Positions 3,220-27,299 of a stretch of DNA of 27,299 nt are shown here, one piece after another. The first letter of the stretch is position 1, and each line of letters starts with the position of its first letter. The stretch is from a virus, in the IMG/VR virus record IMGVR_UViG_3300044733_004699, positions 1-27,299 of that record; one strand, 5' to 3'. The translations under genes were made by a program, and so were the position numbers. The notes below the pieces were generated by a model. That model ran no database searches. It saw only the letters and a list, made by a program, of their open reading frames with translations, and was not told where the DNA came from.

Positions 3220-5254
3220 TGTCAGCCTCTAGCAGCTCTTTGAACTGTGCTGGAGCTTCTTCCTTCCATTGCTTCATAGCATCCTCGATGTCTTCGTCCG
3301 AAATAAACGCAGCCTCGTCAATGTCAGCAAGCATTAGCCCTTCCACTTTCATGGGCTCAATAGCATCCACTTTGCTGCTAACAAGCTTTGCTGGTCCCCG
3401 ACGATCAGGATCAGGGTCAGCTTTACGCTTGCGGGCTACAATCGTCTGTCGCTCTTCCTTGTTCATGGCTTGGGCCTTTGCCTTGGGTAGGCACTTGGGC
3501 TTACCTTCCTTCTCTTCGCGACCGCCGCATTCGCCAAGGATTTCTCCATTGGCTCCAATCCTCACCCATTCTTCCTTGAACCACTTGTCAAGATCGTCGT
3601 AATTCACGTCACCATCGTCCCCCTTGAAGCCACTGCCACCACCGTGCTTCTTGGAATAAAGTTCTTTGTATTTCTGAACCATGTATGCGCTGGCATAAGC
3701 GCTCGGCCATACTTTGAACTTTGACTTTGTAGCAGCAATGGCTTGCTGGTGAAGATCCTTGTCTTTGAACTGCACGTCGCCCCTGACCTTTTCAAGGTCG
3801 CGAGGCAAGAACAATCCTGCTGCATCTTGCACCTCACGGCTTCCGTCCATCGGCAGAGTGCCATTCTCTTCGTTCATTGGGTCGCGCCCACCAGGAGGCA
3901 CTTTCATCTCACCGCCGGGCTGCGGCAGTTCACGGGGAAGCGATGGGTCGAGAGTGAGTTCCATTGACCATTCAGAACCGCCATAACGGGCCTCTGCCAC
4001 TTCTTTCGGGTGGAGCACGCCAAGTTGGATGTAACGGCCGTCTACTGCCGCCACGCGAGCCCTCACGTCGGCCTTCTCCCTTTCATTCAGTTCAAACAAG
4101 TCGTTGAAATGAATGCGCCATGAATCAGGCACTTGTCCATTGGTGGGACCGTCTTTGCTCAGAAGAATCATCTCCATGAGATGCTTGATTGGGCGCTTGA
4201 ATCGAGATGCCTGATAGTCACCCAACATTTTTGCAAAGTCACGCTCTTCGCTCCGGCCAGTGGAGCCCAATCCGCTAGGGCTTTCCCCAAAAAGAATGGT
4301 GTGAGGAATTTGTGAGGCGCCAATAATATCAATGCGCAGTTTCTCCAGGATTTCTCCAATGCCACCAAAGTTGCGGCTAATGAATTCCAGCTCTTCTTTC
4401 TCTGCGTCAATTGCATAGCCGCGATACACGCTCTTGCTCATGTCGTTCAAGATCAGGCGATCGCGCACGTCCTTTTCTTTGCCAGCAGCAAGCATCGTGG
4501 ACAGGCCGCGAAGTTTATGCACAAAGATGTCAAATTCAGTAAGAAGCGTGGCTGCAGAACTAATGCCAGTGGAATAGAAGCGAAAGCTGTCATAAACACT
4601 CTGCAGACTGCTCATCCCCCACCCATAGTTCCGCTGCCTGATCCTGTAGGGAAGCCATTCCCCATCAAACCTCAGGATCCTGTCTTTGTGGATGTAAGTG
4701 AGTTGTGGCTGGCGAATGAGGTCGCCAGAAATGATTTGATAGTAAGTGGCCTTGGAATAGTCGTAGAGACTTTCCTCGCTGATCACTGGGGCAATCTGCC
4801 AGCGATCAAGCACTTCCATACCTTCAATACTGCGGATGTTCCGTCGATCTACGGGCTGGTTTGCAGGGCGCCCGTCGTCGATGTACAGAAGAATAACTGC
4901 GCCGCCAAAAAGTCGTGCATTTTTACAAGCAAGACCGAGGTTCTCAAGGATGTATAAATCCTCGATAATTTGCTCAATGCCAGCCACCTCTTCAGCGGCA
5001 GCACCTTCTCCACCAAACAGCACCTTGAAACCCTTTCTAGTGGCTTGTTCGGCAACAATGTCCACAATTCGCTTGGGAATCCACTCGGAATAAAGGTTTT
5101 CTAGTTCTTCCTGTGTGAGAAAGACGATGGGCTGGGCGGAAGTGAATTGGCTTTTGTCGCGACCAGTGCCCATGCCTGTGAGGGCATTCACCAGACCGTC
5201 CACTCGCAGGCTCTCATTGCCGTTGTGGCCAAGATTGACGATTTCTTCCGACAT
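3209..5254 (-). CDS. Phage portal protein (DUF1073-type) with C-terminal DUF5872-like module
   Basis: This 681-residue protein forms the dodecameric DNA channel at the capsid vertex. Residues from about 50 to 450 have the DUF1073/Gp6-like portal texture: WIPKRIVDIVAEQATRKG near the N-terminus, the LARLFGGA-like segment (CKNARLFGGAVILL), IPHTILFGESPSGLGSTG, and a helical clip/stem region. Residues about 505-628 form an extra module with KVWPSAYASAYMVQKYK, a WFKEEWV helix and KCLPKAKA...RKRKADP. I associate it from memory with DUF5872, a family otherwise found as separate small basic proteins. An acidic tail follows. The gene is first in a minus-strand operon and diverges from the nuclease/terminase genes. 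The start at 5254 follows a weak GGGAAA; no better one is visible. Confidence 0.85.
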   Translation of the reverse strand: MSEEIVNLGHNGNESLRVDGLVNALTGMGTGRDKSQFTSAQPIVFLTQEELENLYSEWIPKRIVDIVAEQATRKGFKVLFGGEGAAAEEVAGIEQIIEDLYILENLGLACKNARLFGGAVILLYIDDGRPANQPVDRRNIRSIEGMEVLDRWQIAPVISEESLYDYSKATYYQIISGDLIRQPQLTYIHKDRILRFDGEWLPYRIRQRNYGWGMSSLQSVYDSFRFYSTGISSAATLLTEFDIFVHKLRGLSTMLAAGKEKDVRDRLILNDMSKSVYRGYAIDAEKEELEFISRNFGGIGEILEKLRIDIIGASQIPHTILFGESPSGLGSTGRSEERDFAKMLGDYQASRFKRPIKHLMEMILLSKDGPTNGQVPDSWRIHFNDLFELNEREKADVRARVAAVDGRYIQLGVLHPKEVAEARYGGSEWSMELTLDPSLPRELPQPGGEMKVPPGGRDPMNEENGTLPMDGSREVQDAAGLFLPRDLEKVRGDVQFKDKDLHQQAIAATKSKFKVWPSAYASAYMVQKYKELYSKKHGGGSGFKGDDGDVNYDDLDKWFKEEWVRIGANGEILGECGGREEKEGKPKCLPKAKAQAMNKEERQTIVARKRKADPDPDRRGPAKLVSSKVDAIEPMKVEGLMLADIDEAAFISDEDIEDAMKQWKEEAPAQFKELLEADNAE

Positions 5255-13190: not shown

Positions 13191-13886
13191 CTATAGGCTA
13201 GTGGGAGCGATTGCGGCGTTAGCTTTCTTCTTTCCAGTGCCATGGGCGAGGAAAGCTATCACTACCCTGCGGCCGCGATGATGGCACAGCTTGCAATCGG
13301 CGCAAGTGGTAGTGTCTGAACGTTGCGCAGGACACACTAGAACAGTGTTCCCGGCCGGCGTGTGCCACGTTGTGCGCTCTTCATCGCTGTTAGCTACCAT
13401 CACGGCAGGTAATCCGGCGGCGATTGCATCATCGGCGGCTGTTTCTGACTCAGTGCTGAGATTGATTGTAAAACCGTTGCGGTTAGCGTATTTCAGAAGC
13501 TGAAGATTCTCTCCCAACTTTATGTCATGGTGAGTGTAGGTGAAGGCCTTTAAGTGTTGCACACTTGCTACCATGCGGCGGATGAATGTGCGGCTGATTC
13601 TGCCGTTTGTATGCGGGCAATCTCCAGCCTGATTGTGGCGAAACAGACGCCCACTTTCTAAGCTGAGAAGACTAGAAAGGAATTCCGAGAATGTAACACC
13701 GCGCAGACCTTCGGTAACCTTTCGCCAATGTAGGAGAAGTGGGCCCGATTCTGCGTAGCATCCGTTCTGAAAGAAAGGACAGGAAGGAGAACACGTGGCG
13801 CGGGAGGACGTGCTAACGGCTATGGGCCCAGTCTTAGCGTTAGAGCTGACAGTAGAAAGGTGAAAAGAAAGGGAAGAAAGTTTCAT
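13191..13886 (-). CDS. Cys-rich phage protein, DUF7227-like
   Basis: From the ATG at 13886 this is a 231-residue protein. It has the pattern I know from DUF7227-type phage proteins: SPSCPFFQNGCYAESGP near the N-terminus, an HNQAGDCP motif, FTYTHHD, a GFTINLS strand, VLVCPAQR, then CADCKLCHHRGR and a FLAHGTG end. The Cys clusters suggest a metal or Fe-S site; the function is not established. The frame runs 15 codons further to a TTG, but that part is a CTTTC repeat leader that happens to repeat MKLSSLSF, so the ATG is preferred. A terminator follows. It is downstream of two small genes on the same strand. Confidence 0.75.
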   Translation of the reverse strand: MKLSSLSFHLSTVSSNAKTGPIAVSTSSRATCSPSCPFFQNGCYAESGPLLLHWRKVTEGLRGVTFSEFLSSLLSLESGRLFRHNQAGDCPHTNGRISRTFIRRMVASVQHLKAFTYTHHDIKLGENLQLLKYANRNGFTINLSTESETAADDAIAAGLPAVMVANSDEERTTWHTPAGNTVLVCPAQRSDTTTCADCKLCHHRGRRVVIAFLAHGTGKKKANAAIAPTSL

Positions 13887-13917
13887 GATCAGAAAGAAAG
13901 AAGGAAAGAAAGAAAGG

Positions 13918-14070
13918 CTAGAAAGTTTCAAACCACTTGCGATAATCTGCCTTCAACGCATCGGAAACCTCCTGCCAATAGTTGAAAGCATCCTCTTCAT
14001 CATTGAACTGGTTGTTGTCATCCACCAGGGCGATCAGTTCGATGAGTTGGCCGGGGGTGAGACTTGTCAT
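13918..14070 (-). CDS. 50-aa acidic protein of unknown function
   Basis: A short frame codes MTSLTPGQLIELIALVDDNN followed by an Asp/Glu- and Trp-rich helix (DEEDAFNYWQEV) and the end YRKWFETF. Strong amphipathic periodicity and its place in a gap of matching strand support it. No family is recognised. The ATG is preceded by a (CTTTC)-rich leader and no Shine-Dalgarno site. The stop is 31 bp before the DUF7227-like ATG, with another CTTTC tract between. Confidence 0.65.
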   Translation of the reverse strand: MTSLTPGQLIELIALVDDNNQFNDEEDAFNYWQEVSDALKADYRKWFETF

Positions 14071-14115: not shown

Positions 14116-14436
14116 TCAGAAGTTCTCGGACGGTTCATCCCACGCCACGCGGTGACCTTTCACGGTCTGCCGATAGAGTGCACGCGCCTTTTCAGCAGGC
14201 AGAACGGGCGCAGAAGCAAACGACCATAGGAGAGCCTCAGCAACGTCCCTCAGGGTCTGGCAAGGGCTGATCTCCCATCCCTTGCTTACGTGGTAGCCGT
14301 GCTGTGCGTGGGAGATGCTGTCGATCAGCCCGAGGGTTCTGGCCGCTGCCTTAATGGCTTTCACGGTGCCACGTTTCTGGCCACGTGATACGGCAGACAG
14401 AAATTCAAAGGCGTCCGGGCGATTGCAGAAGGTCAT
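14116..14436 (-). CDS. Small basic protein of unknown function
   Basis: From the ATG at 14436 this is a 106-residue protein starting MTFCNRPDAFEFLSAVSRG. It has a basic helix (KRGTVKAIKAAARTLGLI), then HGYHVSKGWEI and an Ala/Leu-rich C-terminal half ending EPSENF. No family is recognised. The frame is open to 14586, but the extension is compositionally odd (Ala/Gly/Cys-rich) and contains the palindrome at 14552-14568. The ATG at 14436 also has the CTTTCCTCTC leader seen at neighbouring genes. It is first in the minus-strand unit that ends at 13191. Confidence 0.65.
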   Translation of the reverse strand: MTFCNRPDAFEFLSAVSRGQKRGTVKAIKAAARTLGLIDSISHAQHGYHVSKGWEISPCQTLRDVAEALLWSFASAPVLPAEKARALYRQTVKGHRVAWDEPSENF

Positions 14437-14551
14437 GAGAGGAAAGCGGAGGGAATCGGCCGGGAATCGCTTCCCTGCCATGGGCCCATTGTTGCCGCCA
14501 GAACGGACCAGGGCGCGGCATGCTGTGCCGCCTCCAGCACCGGCACACAAT

Positions 14552-14568
14552 GCGGCGCACTGCGCCGC
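14552..14568. repeat. Perfect 7-bp GC hairpin
   Basis: GCGGCGC-act-GCGCCGC, upstream of the minus-strand gene at 14436. On the plus strand it is followed by TTTC. It could be a weak terminator or an operator. Confidence 0.4.
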
Positions 14569-14811
14569 TTTCATGGTTTGGCCCATTGTCTGGCGCCCGT
14601 GGTTGGGAGGATCCTGCAGGGAAGGAAAGAACGCGCATGCGCGCGCAAATCATGCCTCCCGCCATCCTGTCAACCATTGCCCAAAAAGTAGCGAGGCGAA
14701 CCGTAACGGCCGAAACGCCTTGCCCCATCTGGAAAGCTGCGGAAAGCGCTTCTAGGTGTGGGGATAGCCGGGAAGGCCTGAAACGCCTCACAGAGGCTCC
14801 TGGGAGCCTCT

Positions 14812-14829
14812 CAGCGCTGATCAGCGCTG
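14812..14829. repeat. 18-bp perfect palindrome next to a 9-bp stem-loop
   Basis: CAGCGCTGATCAGCGCTG reads the same on both strands. It directly follows the stem-loop AGAGGCTCC-tg-GGAGCCTCT (14792-14811). Two strong symmetric elements back to back point to a protein-binding or cruciform site. Confidence 0.6.
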
Positions 14830-15157
14830 CTTATGGTTCGCTGCAGTATAAAGAACTGGAAAGGCCGAAAGGTATAGCTAACAACAGCGCTCCTAAGGGT
14901 AAAGAACTGGGACATAACGGCATCGTGATAATGCACTGCCATGGGCAAGCGATTGTCACATTTCGCAATACTACGGCGAGTCGGTCGGGAATCCGGGGAT
15001 TGTGCCAATCCGCCAATCGGCACAAGTGCAAACGTACTAGTCGGGCGCTGATAAGCTGGGCTGATTGTTTGGCCTGGAATGATCAGGATGCCTTATAAGA
15101 TAAGGGATGCTGATGGTTCGGCCCGGATTGATAAGCTCAGCTTATGGATGCCATTAT

Positions 15158-15172
15158 TGAGAATGATTCTCA
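15158..15172. promoter_or_regulatory. Fur-like 7-1-7 box, copy 1
   Basis: TGAGAATGATTCTCA is a perfect 7-1-7 inverted repeat. It matches the Fur-family operator consensus TGATAATNATTATCA at 13 of the 14 defined positions except for a G/C pair swap at the fourth base of each arm. A regulator of that family, host or phage, is a plausible binder; this is inferred from the site alone. Confidence 0.5.
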
Positions 15173-15180
15173 GTATCAGT

Positions 15181-15212
15181 AGTACACCAGTACTACAGTA
15201 CACCAGTACTAT
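15181..15212. repeat. Tandem 16-bp repeat, each unit a palindrome
   Basis: AGTACACCAGTACTAC at 15181-15196 is repeated at 15197-15212 with one change. Each unit contains AGTAC-acca-GTACT. The pair is flanked on both sides by a Fur-like box, giving a near-symmetric array that looks like a multi-site operator or origin-binding cluster. Confidence 0.65.
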
Positions 15213-15227
15213 TGAGAACGATTCTCA
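15213..15227. promoter_or_regulatory. Fur-like 7-1-7 box, copy 2
   Basis: TGAGAACGATTCTCA repeats copy 1 with two base changes and pairs in 6 of 7 arm positions. The two box centres are 55 bp apart. Confidence 0.45.
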
Positions 15228-15258
15228 TTCTCACCAAGAAAAATAGTACAAACGCACT

Positions 15259-15342
15259 AATACACCTTTGCCCGGACCCAATACGCCTCTAGCCGGGTCC
15301 AATACACTTTCAGCCGGACCCAATACATAGCCAGCCGAACCC
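15259..15342. repeat. 21-bp iterons
   Basis: AATAC recurs at 15259, 15280, 15301 and 15322, exactly 21 bp apart. CCGG or CCGA occurs at 15272, 15293, 15314 and 15335 with the same period. The best-kept core is GCCGGACCCAATACA. Read on the minus strand in one frame this gives a 7-residue repeat (VLGPAES, VLDPARG, VLGPGKG). However, that frame overlaps the supported 51-aa gene, so DNA iterons are the better reading. Twenty-one bp is two helical turns, as in many Rep-protein iterons. Confidence 0.6.
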
Positions 15343-15498
15343 TCACCATTTAAGCCCTGATTGAGCCGCCGCAATGGCGGCTTTTTCGTCTCTATACGGC
15401 CCTCCCACTTCTTCCCCATCGTCTTCATACCAGTACCAGCCCTCTACAAGCTCTGTGCCCTTGCAGCAAGCTTCTGAGAAATAATCAATGAGAATCAT
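15343..15498 (-). CDS. 51-aa protein of unknown function
   Basis: A short frame starts MILIDYFSEACCKG, continues GWYWYEDDGEEVGGPYRDEK and ends AAIAAAQSGLKW. The WYW-EDDGEE-GPY(R)-E-A pattern is typical of small phage proteins with a beta-hairpin and a helix; no named family is known to me. It overlaps the previous gene by 14 bp in another frame and is the last gene of the small-protein operon. Its 3' end carries a GCCGCC/GGCGGC hairpin that is coding (AAIAAA). The iterons begin right after its stop. Confidence 0.6.
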   Translation of the reverse strand: MILIDYFSEACCKGTELVEGWYWYEDDGEEVGGPYRDEKAAIAAAQSGLKW

Positions 15499-15664
15499 AC
15501 TGGCCACCAAGTTCAACTAAAGCATCCCGCAAAAAATCAACAAAATGCTGTTTGTGAATGTTTTTGAAGATATTGTCCACATATTCTTTAGTGTCAGGAT
15601 CGTAAAGCACCATGCCTCTCCACCAGTCCTCAACGAAGTGTGAAAGCGAATCATCGTCAATCAT
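15485..15664 (-). CDS. 59-aa acidic protein of unknown function
   Basis: A frame of 59 residues starts MIDDDSLSHFVEDWWRGMVL and continues with YDPDTKEYVDNIFKNIH and a helical C-terminus ending QYDSH. It overlaps the stop of the preceding zinc-binding-type gene by 4 bp (ATGA), so coupled translation is likely, and the 51-aa gene overlaps its end. No family is recognised. The clean start/stop overlap on both sides is the main support. Confidence 0.65.
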   Translation of the reverse strand: MIDDDSLSHFVEDWWRGMVLYDPDTKEYVDNIFKNIHKQHFVDFLRDALVELGGQYDSH

Positions 15665-16074
15665 GAGAATTCTCCAATGATGTAATCAAAAGGGCCATCG
15701 CCACCATGGCCAATGCAATGGCCAGGATACAAAGCATGCCTGGCGAGACCACAAGGGCCAATCGTGGCGTGATTATCTGCTAACCATTTCTTGTCGAAAA
15801 GCTTTTCCGACCGTCCTTTTCTATCCCAAACAATGGAAAAGAAAAGAGCAGGATCAATGGAATCTCCATACTCGTTTCTAATTTCATAATCTTTTTCTTC
15901 CACCTTGTAATGAATATGGCTCCACATATCGCCCCAATTGTGTAAATCTTTTTCGGGATACACGTGCAAGCCAAAGCACCACCCTGCCGAGCTTTTGCCA
16001 AGATGCAATGGTTCTTCTACTTCTTTACCACAGTGCAAGCATTTAGGAGCATGCAAATAATAATTGGTTCCCAT
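15661..16074 (-). CDS. Conserved small phage protein with a CxxC site
   Basis: From the ATG at 16074 this is a 137-residue protein starting MGTNYYLHAPKCLHCGKEVE. A CxxC pair is followed by LHLGKSSAGWCFGLHVYP, which I recognise as a recurrent phage/bacterial small-protein pattern (MGTNYY...C..C....LHIGKSS.GW.F) without known function. It may bind zinc. His/Gly-rich GHCIGHGGDGPFDY forms the C-terminus. It starts 2 bp after the previous stop and overlaps the next gene by 4 bp, in the middle of a coupled operon. Confidence 0.75.
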   Translation of the reverse strand: MGTNYYLHAPKCLHCGKEVEEPLHLGKSSAGWCFGLHVYPEKDLHNWGDMWSHIHYKVEEKDYEIRNEYGDSIDPALFFSIVWDRKGRSEKLFDKKWLADNHATIGPCGLARHALYPGHCIGHGGDGPFDYIIGEFS

Positions 16075-16076
16075 GG

Positions 16077-16382
16077 TCAAACCCTCTTGAATTTAGAAAG
16101 CATCAAGTTCCACAAGCCTGCAGGGATGTCACCAGGGCGATATAGCACATAAGCGGGTCTTCCTAGAACCATGCCTCCTTCACCATCAGGCTCAGGCTCT
16201 GCTTCATCAGTCCAAATACCTTTGCATTGACCATCATCATCAAACACGCCAATTTGGTAGTCTCCATCTTGCATGCACACTCTGACGTGCATGATCAATT
16301 CACGGAGACGCGCTGCTTGATACACTCCCTGGGTGGAAGGAAAGTAAGGCCCGTTGCTGTTGTAGTTGCGGATGGTGTGCAT
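16077..16382 (-). CDS. Small protein of unknown function
   Basis: A 101-residue protein, MHTIRNYNSNGPYFPSTQG then a helix (VYQAARLRELIMHVRVCM), a beta-rich acidic centre (DYQIGVFDDDGQCKGIW) and YVLYRPGDIPAGLWNLM. The fold looks alpha/beta and compact. No family is recognised. It begins 5 bp after the 64-aa gene and ends 2 bp before the CxxC-protein gene, so it belongs to the same operon. Confidence 0.65.
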   Translation of the reverse strand: MHTIRNYNSNGPYFPSTQGVYQAARLRELIMHVRVCMQDGDYQIGVFDDDGQCKGIWTDEAEPEPDGEGGMVLGRPAYVLYRPGDIPAGLWNLMLSKFKRV

Positions 16383-24906: not shown

Positions 24907-25218
24907 TCAGAACAAATCCTTGGGAGGTGTGTACACCAAGCTATCCTTGAAGCCCAGGATTTCATAATCACCCAGGTCGTCTTTTAGCTTCTTGGCAGCC
25001 TTAAGCTCTTCCTCCATCGCCCTGATTTCGCTTCCATAGTCCTTGTCATAACGACGCTGAATGCGAATGGTGCCATAAGGGCTTTCTTCTTTTTCAAGGC
25101 CATCTTCCTGCATTGCTGCCAGAAGGTCTGCTTTGCATTGTGCTTCCTTTTCAGCCAATGCTTTTTGATTTGCCTTGATGCTTTCTAGTTCCTTGAGGAA
25201 CTGTTCAATGTCAGTCAT
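24907..25218 (-). CDS. Coiled-coil protein of unknown function
   Basis: A 103-residue protein, MTDIEQFLKELESIKANQKA, with a long charged coiled coil, a short beta segment (SPYGTIRIQRRYDKD), and a second helix. This plan, coiled coil then YGTIRIQRR-type hairpin, resembles host-nuclease inhibitor or Gam-like small phage proteins only loosely. It overlaps the upstream gene by 4 bp. Confidence 0.7.
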   Translation of the reverse strand: MTDIEQFLKELESIKANQKALAEKEAQCKADLLAAMQEDGLEKEESPYGTIRIQRRYDKDYGSEIRAMEEELKAAKKLKDDLGDYEILGFKDSLVYTPPKDLF

Positions 25219-26315: not shown

Positions 26316-27296
26316 CTAGAAAAAGTCTTCTTCTTCTGCCTCTGCAGGGGCAGACTGAGGGGCAGGGTCAAAGTTGAACTCAGGCTCTTGATAGTCCCAA
26401 GATTGATACATCCTTGTCTTTTCTCCATTGGGACCATCTTGAAAGCTACTGGTGATAAGCCCTTGCCTCCTGGCCACTTCCAGCATCTTGCCAATAGCTG
26501 CCACGTCCCAATTGCCAGCCAAAGAGGCCACTTGCTGCTTGTTAAAACGCTCAGTCTTTCGCATGTTGATGGTGTTGACGGCTTGATCCAGTTCCTCCAG
26601 CGAACCACCAATGGGGCCTGTATAACGCCAGCCATAGTTCAAACTATCACGCTGCAGGGAATGCTTGCCCGTCAGGCCACTCCTACTCTTAAGCCATTCA
26701 AGAGTGAATTCATTGGGGTCGAAGTTGCCTTCAGAGCGAGTGAGCTTCACCACCTCACTAACGTTGTCTACAAAGCTGGTCGAATCTCGCAGGCCACCAC
26801 TCTTGTTCAAATGGTGAAGAATGAGAATTGAACAGCGATAGGTATTAGCAATATCTCGCAGGCCGTAAATTACATCGCCAGCATTGCTCTTGATTAAGTC
26901 AACATTCATTCCTGCAAGGCAGGCGGTGAGACTATCAATGGTGACGAATAAAGGGCGGTGCCTTCTCACATAGTCTTCTAGCTGTTTCATGTGGGCAAAG
27001 CGCCAGCTTTCCCAGAAACAAATGGTGCCCGGTTCCAAAGCTGCATCTTGATAGCCAATCACTCCCAGCTTCTCGCTGGTGTCTACCAAGGGTTCGTCAC
27101 TTTGAATGATGAGGCTTTTGCCTTTCATGCAACGCCTTCCGCTCCATGGCTGGCCCTGAGCAATGTTTAGCGCCCAGTTGTAAGCAACAGTACTTTTTCC
27201 AGTACCGCCGGATGCCGCCAAGAGCATCACACTGCCAAGGGGCATGATGCCTGCAATGAGCCATTCCCTAGCCTTGTCTGAATTGGCGATGGTCAT
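26316..27296 (-). CDS. RepA/KaiC-type P-loop ATPase (RecA-fold), possible replication protein
   Basis: A 326-residue protein with a RecA-fold ATPase core: Walker A GGTGKST (30-36), an IIQSDEP strand, Walker B FVTIDS ending at D121, and SILILHHLNKSGGLRDS near 154-170, the hexameric-helicase/RepA-type motif with paired His. The C-terminal third has a winged-helix-like segment and an acidic end (EAEEEDFF). The family (AAA_25, RepA-like) covers plasmid and phage replicative helicases and related ATPases; this one is likely a replication or recombination ATPase. The N-terminus is at the window edge and may extend beyond it. Confidence 0.8.
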   Translation of the reverse strand: MTIANSDKAREWLIAGIMPLGSVMLLAASGGTGKSTVAYNWALNIAQGQPWSGRRCMKGKSLIIQSDEPLVDTSEKLGVIGYQDAALEPGTICFWESWRFAHMKQLEDYVRRHRPLFVTIDSLTACLAGMNVDLIKSNAGDVIYGLRDIANTYRCSILILHHLNKSGGLRDSTSFVDNVSEVVKLTRSEGNFDPNEFTLEWLKSRSGLTGKHSLQRDSLNYGWRYTGPIGGSLEELDQAVNTINMRKTERFNKQQVASLAGNWDVAAIGKMLEVARRQGLITSSFQDGPNGEKTRMYQSWDYQEPEFNFDPAPQSAPAEAEEEDFF

Positions 27297-27299
27297 GGC

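Follow-up and report, generated by a model that had tools for sequence, protein, structure and literature searches.

The stretch of DNA analyzed here (the window) is an IMG/VR virus record of 27,299 bases that has no close counterpart in phage or plasmid records. It belongs to a family of ~68- to 77-kb cyanophages related to Synechococcus phage S-CBS4; the portal protein encoded in the window is 66% identical to that of S-CBS4, and the two phages have the gene order primase-helicase, DPBB protein, nrd genes, terminase, and portal in common. Relatives were collected with the 139-aa protein encoded at 15661 to 16080 (38 loci) and with the primase-helicase (54 loci), and 17 related contigs of 30 to 77 kb were examined in detail. 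The initial annotation of the window had described a gene-free gap of 750 bp, and such a gap of about 756 bp is indeed present, with an array of iterons (direct repeats) at its right edge (Table 1). To its left lies a minus-strand gene (14116 to 14586) with a weak homologue in G003, and to its right a conserved 51-aa gene, whose stop codon starts one base past iteron 4.

Table 1. Positions of the features of the gap and of the primase-helicase gene in the window
Feature	Positions	Strand	Sequence	Remarks
Gene-free gap	14587-15342			Contains operators and iteron array; no conserved ORF
AT-rich left flank	15139-15258			Candidate unwinding region; GC 0.38, in the lowest 2.7% of the 120-bp windows of the stretch
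Fur-box-like palindrome	15158-15172		TGAGAATGATTCTCA	Similar element beside tandem LexA boxes in other phages
LexA-type box	15181-15194		AGTACACCAGTACT	Exact AGTACN4GTACT; fits RGTACNNNDGTWCB
Second LexA-type box	15197-15210		AGTACACCAGTACT	16 bp after the first; fits RGTACNNNDGTWCB
Fur-box-like palindrome	15213-15227		TGAGAACGATTCTCA	Similar element beside tandem LexA boxes in other phages
Third, LexA-like box	15245-15258		AGTACAAACGCACT	One mismatch; abuts iteron 1
Iteron 1	15259-15279	+	AATACACCTTTGCCCGGACCC	Phased motifs, Tandem Repeats Finder, self-match
Iteron 2	15280-15300	+	AATACGCCTCTAGCCGGGTCC	Phased motifs, Tandem Repeats Finder, self-match
Iteron 3	15301-15321	+	AATACACTTTCAGCCGGACCC	Phased motifs, Tandem Repeats Finder, self-match
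Iteron 4	15322-15342	+	AATACATAGCCAGCCGAACCC	Ends where the stop codon of the 51-aa gene begins
Conserved 51-aa gene	15343-15498	-	MILIDYFSEACCKGTELVEG...	3' end abuts the array
Primase-helicase (AAA_25), C-terminal half	26316-27299	-		Full length ~653 aa in L161

The array consists of four 21-bp units repeated directly in tandem (15259 to 15342). AATAC recurs at 15259, 15280, 15301, and 15322, and CCGG/CCGA recurs at 15272, 15293, 15314, and 15335, exactly as the initial annotation had recorded. That annotation had counted four to five exact 21-bp units with the core GCCGGACCCAATACA. Four full units were found and no fifth; the unit spacing is exact, but the unit sequences are only about 70% alike, and the core is present but exact in one copy only. 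Tandem Repeats Finder independently called the array (15272 to 15342, period 21, 3.4 copies). Over 86 bp, the self-match was 0.71 at a lag of 21 and 0.68 at a lag of 42. This periodicity was not reached in any of 5,000 dinucleotide-preserving Markov shuffles, for which the best lag was never above 0.58, and elsewhere in the window the self-match of 86-bp stretches did not rise above ~0.60. No stronger periodicity than that of 21 bp was found in the window.

Read on the minus strand, the array encodes a heptapeptide repeat in a frame that is open from 15428 to 15231, and a heptapeptide-repeat protein would be one explanation for the periodicity. The initial annotation had noted that this frame is buried in another gene, and that gene proved to be the 51-aa gene, which the frame overlaps out of register. 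It is the 51-aa frame that is conserved, with homologues in about 30 relatives (63 to 94% identity) and with substitutions in close relatives mostly at the third codon position (e.g., 3/1/12 and 2/1/15). In addition, spacings of 22, 23, and 31 bp in relatives would break the heptapeptide frame. Because of these two observations, the frame was taken to be a by-product, and the protein, the probability of which we consider vanishingly small, was rejected; judged from these sequence comparisons, the array is noncoding. An Rfam search of the gap returned only sub-threshold chance matches. On the plus strand, a terminator-like hairpin with a T run (15363 to 15383) falls within the coding sequence of the minus-strand 51-aa gene.

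Most relatives have a homologous array, usually of four units, at the corresponding locus, which is bounded by nrdA on one side and by the genes at 15661 and 16077 of the window on the other; some relatives (e.g., G168) have no array at this locus. Class A units (DATACNNNNCYAGCCGGRYCY) and the class B units of other lineages (TTACCGCCTTCTAGCAAGTCC) share TAC, AGC, and TCC in register. The neighboring gene varies (the 51-aa gene, an HNH-type gene in L099, L100, and L104, or another gene in L126), and the array keeps its position at the gap edge whichever gene adjoins it. The unit sequence drifts across relatives, while the helical spacing is retained: 77 of 82 unit spacings were 21 to 24, 31 to 34, or 41 to 44 bp, near two, three, or four helical turns, a figure that is descriptive rather than independent because the phages are related. 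A search of IMG/VR with a two-unit pattern returned 69 stretches. Sixty-one were in, or resembled, the S-CBS4-related family (59 with family genes and 2 that were family-like, with no gene match on the 1-kb stretch), a slightly generous count because a few of the 59 rest on one weakly linked gene match; the other 8 resemble unrelated sequence.

The S-CBS4 record itself (NC_016766.1; ends 69213 to 69420 and 1 to 312) differs in that it stops inside the homologue of the window gene at 16077 to 16382 and does not contain the gap, so that an array in S-CBS4 cannot be judged. The assembly of this "complete" record may lack the repeat-rich interval, or the interval may have been deleted. Further repeats were observed in the gaps of other relatives. 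Long AT-rich arrays with a unit of ~10 bp (GAAATGTTAA type) lie directly left of the iterons in L098/G001 (~43904 to 44108) and G162 (24940 to 25200, oriented) and resemble repeated unwinding elements or regulator sites. The gaps of G002, G007, G160, and L117 carry additional tandem arrays, TAGCGCTAAACAGTAGGGCTCAAC (24 bp), TAGCACGGCCACAAGTGAGCCTCACT (26 bp), and GTAGGGTATATTTA... (24 to 25 bp).

The DNA to the left of the array had been described as a region of palindromes, a description that missed that much of it consists of LexA-type and Fur-box-like operators. The palindromic DNA is largely made up of AGTACN4GTACT boxes, which fit the cyanobacterial LexA site consensus, AGTACWNWTGTACT or RGTACNNNDGTWCB (PMC3091678). 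In 13 genomes or contigs, the exact box occurs 14 times in the 65.7 kb that extend from nrdA to the gap edge, to which S-CBS4 contributes only 317 bp, versus 0 times in the other 780 kb. Boxes of this kind were also sought in hosts. In five small cyanobacterial genomes, which may not include the phage's host, lexA is preceded at a distance of 51 to 60 bp by GGTACAYATGTATT-like boxes with one mismatch, and in two of the five a second such box follows 16 bp on. The phage boxes differ from such operators in their setting, next to iterons in a gap, and in often forming perfect tandem pairs; a search of 11 phage records detected neither a lexA nor a fur gene. Taken together, the gap boxes are putative host-type LexA operators concentrated at the site of the array.

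The two remaining palindromes are of the TGAGAAYGATTCTCA type, fit the 7-1-7 pattern TGAGAATNATTCTCA, and are Fur-box-like by resemblance. In 12 genomes of the host phylum, this pattern was rare and not enriched, and the match examined (G126) had no obvious iron gene adjoining it. Tandem LexA-type boxes at 16-bp spacing were found at 49 IMG/VR loci, roughly 28 of them with genes of the S-CBS4-related family and the rest in other phages, with L339 a simple repeat. In several of the phages with tandem boxes, a Fur-box-like element lies beside them at set distances. A DUF7227 gene (13191 to 13931 in the window) recurs on contigs with LexA-box gaps (L300, L301, L320, L326, L330, and L337), a recurrence that covers the phage family of the window and other phages.

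Next, the base composition around the array was compared. The left flank, which overlaps the LexA-type and Fur-like operators, is AT-rich in most relatives; its GC percentile is 2.7 in the window, 0.3 in G001, 1.8 in G006, and 2.6 in G002. It is not clearly AT-rich in L109, L113, and L119 and is strongly GC-rich in L092. The GC-skew check proposed in the initial annotation gave a divided result. The raw cumulative minimum falls within about 3 kb of the array or gap in G001, G003, G006, G007, and the window, and composition changes weakly across the array in the expected direction, but the minimum of the detrended circular skew lies 3 to 13 kb away in phage contigs, often near portal or terL. 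Skew at third codon positions, a better-controlled comparison, was lowest in the gene block to the right of the array in most genomes. In all of the larger genomes with enough genes, C-richness on the coding strand is highest in this block and lower both in the late block and in the early block, which lies beyond the helicase on the other strand. This order is expected if replication starts at the gap, but the effect is small and the genomes are related. DnaA boxes were not enriched: the 43.8 kb at distances of up to 500 bp from tandem LexA boxes contained 4 of them, versus 12 in 325 kb elsewhere. A single phage, L317, accounts for two of these four; in its gap, two DnaA-box-like TTTTCCACA sites (4690 to 4715) lie beside LexA-type boxes.

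Plasmid iterons are typically in phase with the DNA helix, and origins typically contain an AT-rich unwinding element (PMC5043065). The initial annotation had proposed a Rep-dependent origin; what stands of that proposal is an array that is noncoding, conserved in place, confined to a single site in each genome, phased, usually of four units, and mostly flanked by AT-rich DNA. An origin is thus a plausible reading, now with comparative support, and we place at about even the probability that the array is the core of a phage replication origin that opens its AT-rich flank for loading of the primase-helicase. In the proposed mechanism, an initiator would bind the four direct repeats, which are two helical turns apart, on one face of the DNA. 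The bound initiator would open the adjoining AT-rich DNA, and the phage primase-helicase would load onto the opened strands. Host regulators at the LexA-type and Fur-like operators of the flank would probably affect transcription or opening there.

The initial annotation had suggested as the binder an ATPase encoded at 26316, which is the C-terminal half of the primase-helicase. The complete protein has a Zn-ribbon/TOPRIM-like N terminus (the Pfam scores of these first two parts are below the curated cutoffs), an AAA_25 helicase domain, and a winged-helix-like tail. The recognition-helix region of the tail is identical in G001, which has class A units, and in G005, which has class B units. The tail therefore does not track the repeat, and it was rejected as the iteron binder. 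A search for genes that track unit class gave mostly structural genes plus one for a 79-aa protein (G001, 47973 to 48212); none of them tracks the class clearly, and no convincing DNA-binding candidate is among them. Because its sequence changes and its helical spacing does not, the array may expose a coevolving initiator once more genomes are compared. A PDB sequence search with the primase-helicase profile gave nothing at an E value of 0.001; structural matches span the helicase domain. In L209 and L212, the primase-helicase ORF (from 7871) is 1,063 aa long, versus ~650 to 700 aa, and carries an in-frame insert, a probable intein, close to the Walker A motif.

Among known systems, the origin of phage lambda (ori-lambda), which is bound by the O protein, resembles the locus in having four phased, phage-specific repeats of ~2 helical turns beside an AT-rich element. 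The lambda iterons lie inside the O gene, whereas the units of the cyanophage array are direct repeats of 21 bp, and the gap that contains them is noncoding and ~11 kb away from the helicase gene; LexA-type operators lie alongside, and no O homologue was recognized. The four lambda iterons are 19 bp long, and each forms an inverted repeat to which an O dimer binds; transcription near the lambda origin affects replication (PMC3985674, PMC5043065). The oriV of IncQ RSF1010, with RepA as the helicase and RepC as the iteron binder, likewise combines direct ~20-bp repeats with palindromes and with regions rich in GC or in AT (PMC7557826). The helicase domain of the phage has RSF1010 RepA among its structural matches (Z 21.4), as one of many RecA folds of similar score. 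The cyanophage differs from RSF1010 in that primase and helicase are one protein and in that no RepC was recognized.

The same features could be explained without replication. The gap could be a transcription control region in which the array serves as a multisite operator for a phage or host regulator that, jointly with LexA and Fur, controls the minus-strand genes on the left side (14116 to 14586, DUF7227, and nrd). The adjoining LexA-type and Fur-like operators are consistent with such a role. In the unrelated phages L294, L301, and L321, moreover, tandem LexA-type boxes lie 80 to 160 bp upstream of a conserved small gene (product ...KFYGPLKQVA...), a promoter-operator-like arrangement, and it is mainly this short distance that makes a transcription-only role a serious rival. 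However, no strong promoter pattern stands out in the gap (1 match, versus 1.1 expected), and the distance to the start of the next downstream gene is about 600 bp. An array of about four units that is intact and in helical phase also exceeds the usual needs of an operator, and transcription control leaves the change in skew unexplained. On balance, we regard a transcription-only role as possible but clearly less probable than an origin.

The operators might instead act as decoys, with arrays of host sites that titrate LexA, Fur, and perhaps further regulators as the number of phage genomes rises. Gaps with up to five LexA-type boxes plus further tandem arrays would suit this role, as would the finding of neither lexA nor fur in the 11 phage records, but the sites are few per genome, some relatives have none, and we know of no host operator that the 21-bp unit resembles; we consider titration improbable. 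Even less probable is a partition or packaging site. Phased arrays also make centromere-like sites, and the S-CBS4 record ends in the interval of the array. Nevertheless, no ParB_N match was found in nine relatives by a search that detected its positive controls, the terminase genes are ~9 kb away, and related contigs end at various places.

If the array is an origin, the replication start of a widespread family of cyanophages would be placed precisely and in a testable way. A full-text literature search for cyanophages and iterons, the coverage of which was not exhaustive, gave nothing on point, and origins of this type of cyanophage appear to have been unmapped so far. The less expected part is that host-type LexA operators are concentrated at the same spot as the array, which suggests a means by which a phage without its own lexA might sense host DNA damage. 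From sequence, we infer both origin activity and its control by host LexA or Fur, and the origin is possibly tuned by host stress. A more specific version, to which we attach low confidence, is that host LexA (SOS) and Fur (iron) bind the origin operators and gate cyanophage replication, with a LexA-Fur cassette common to unrelated cyanophages reading the state of the host.

Assignment of a host through a prophage was attempted and rejected, as the sole portal match in genome contigs was a 7.6-kb low-coverage MAG contig and not a prophage. This contig, L160 (JAKOGY010000249.1), from the Dolichospermum sp. ST_sed8 MAG, belongs to the S-CBS4-related family, with a portal 87% identical, and was probably binned into that MAG by mistake. 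Tyrosine integrase genes were found in two of nine relatives (G001, 72829 to 73281; G003, 69074 to 69508), which suggests that some members of the family can be temperate.
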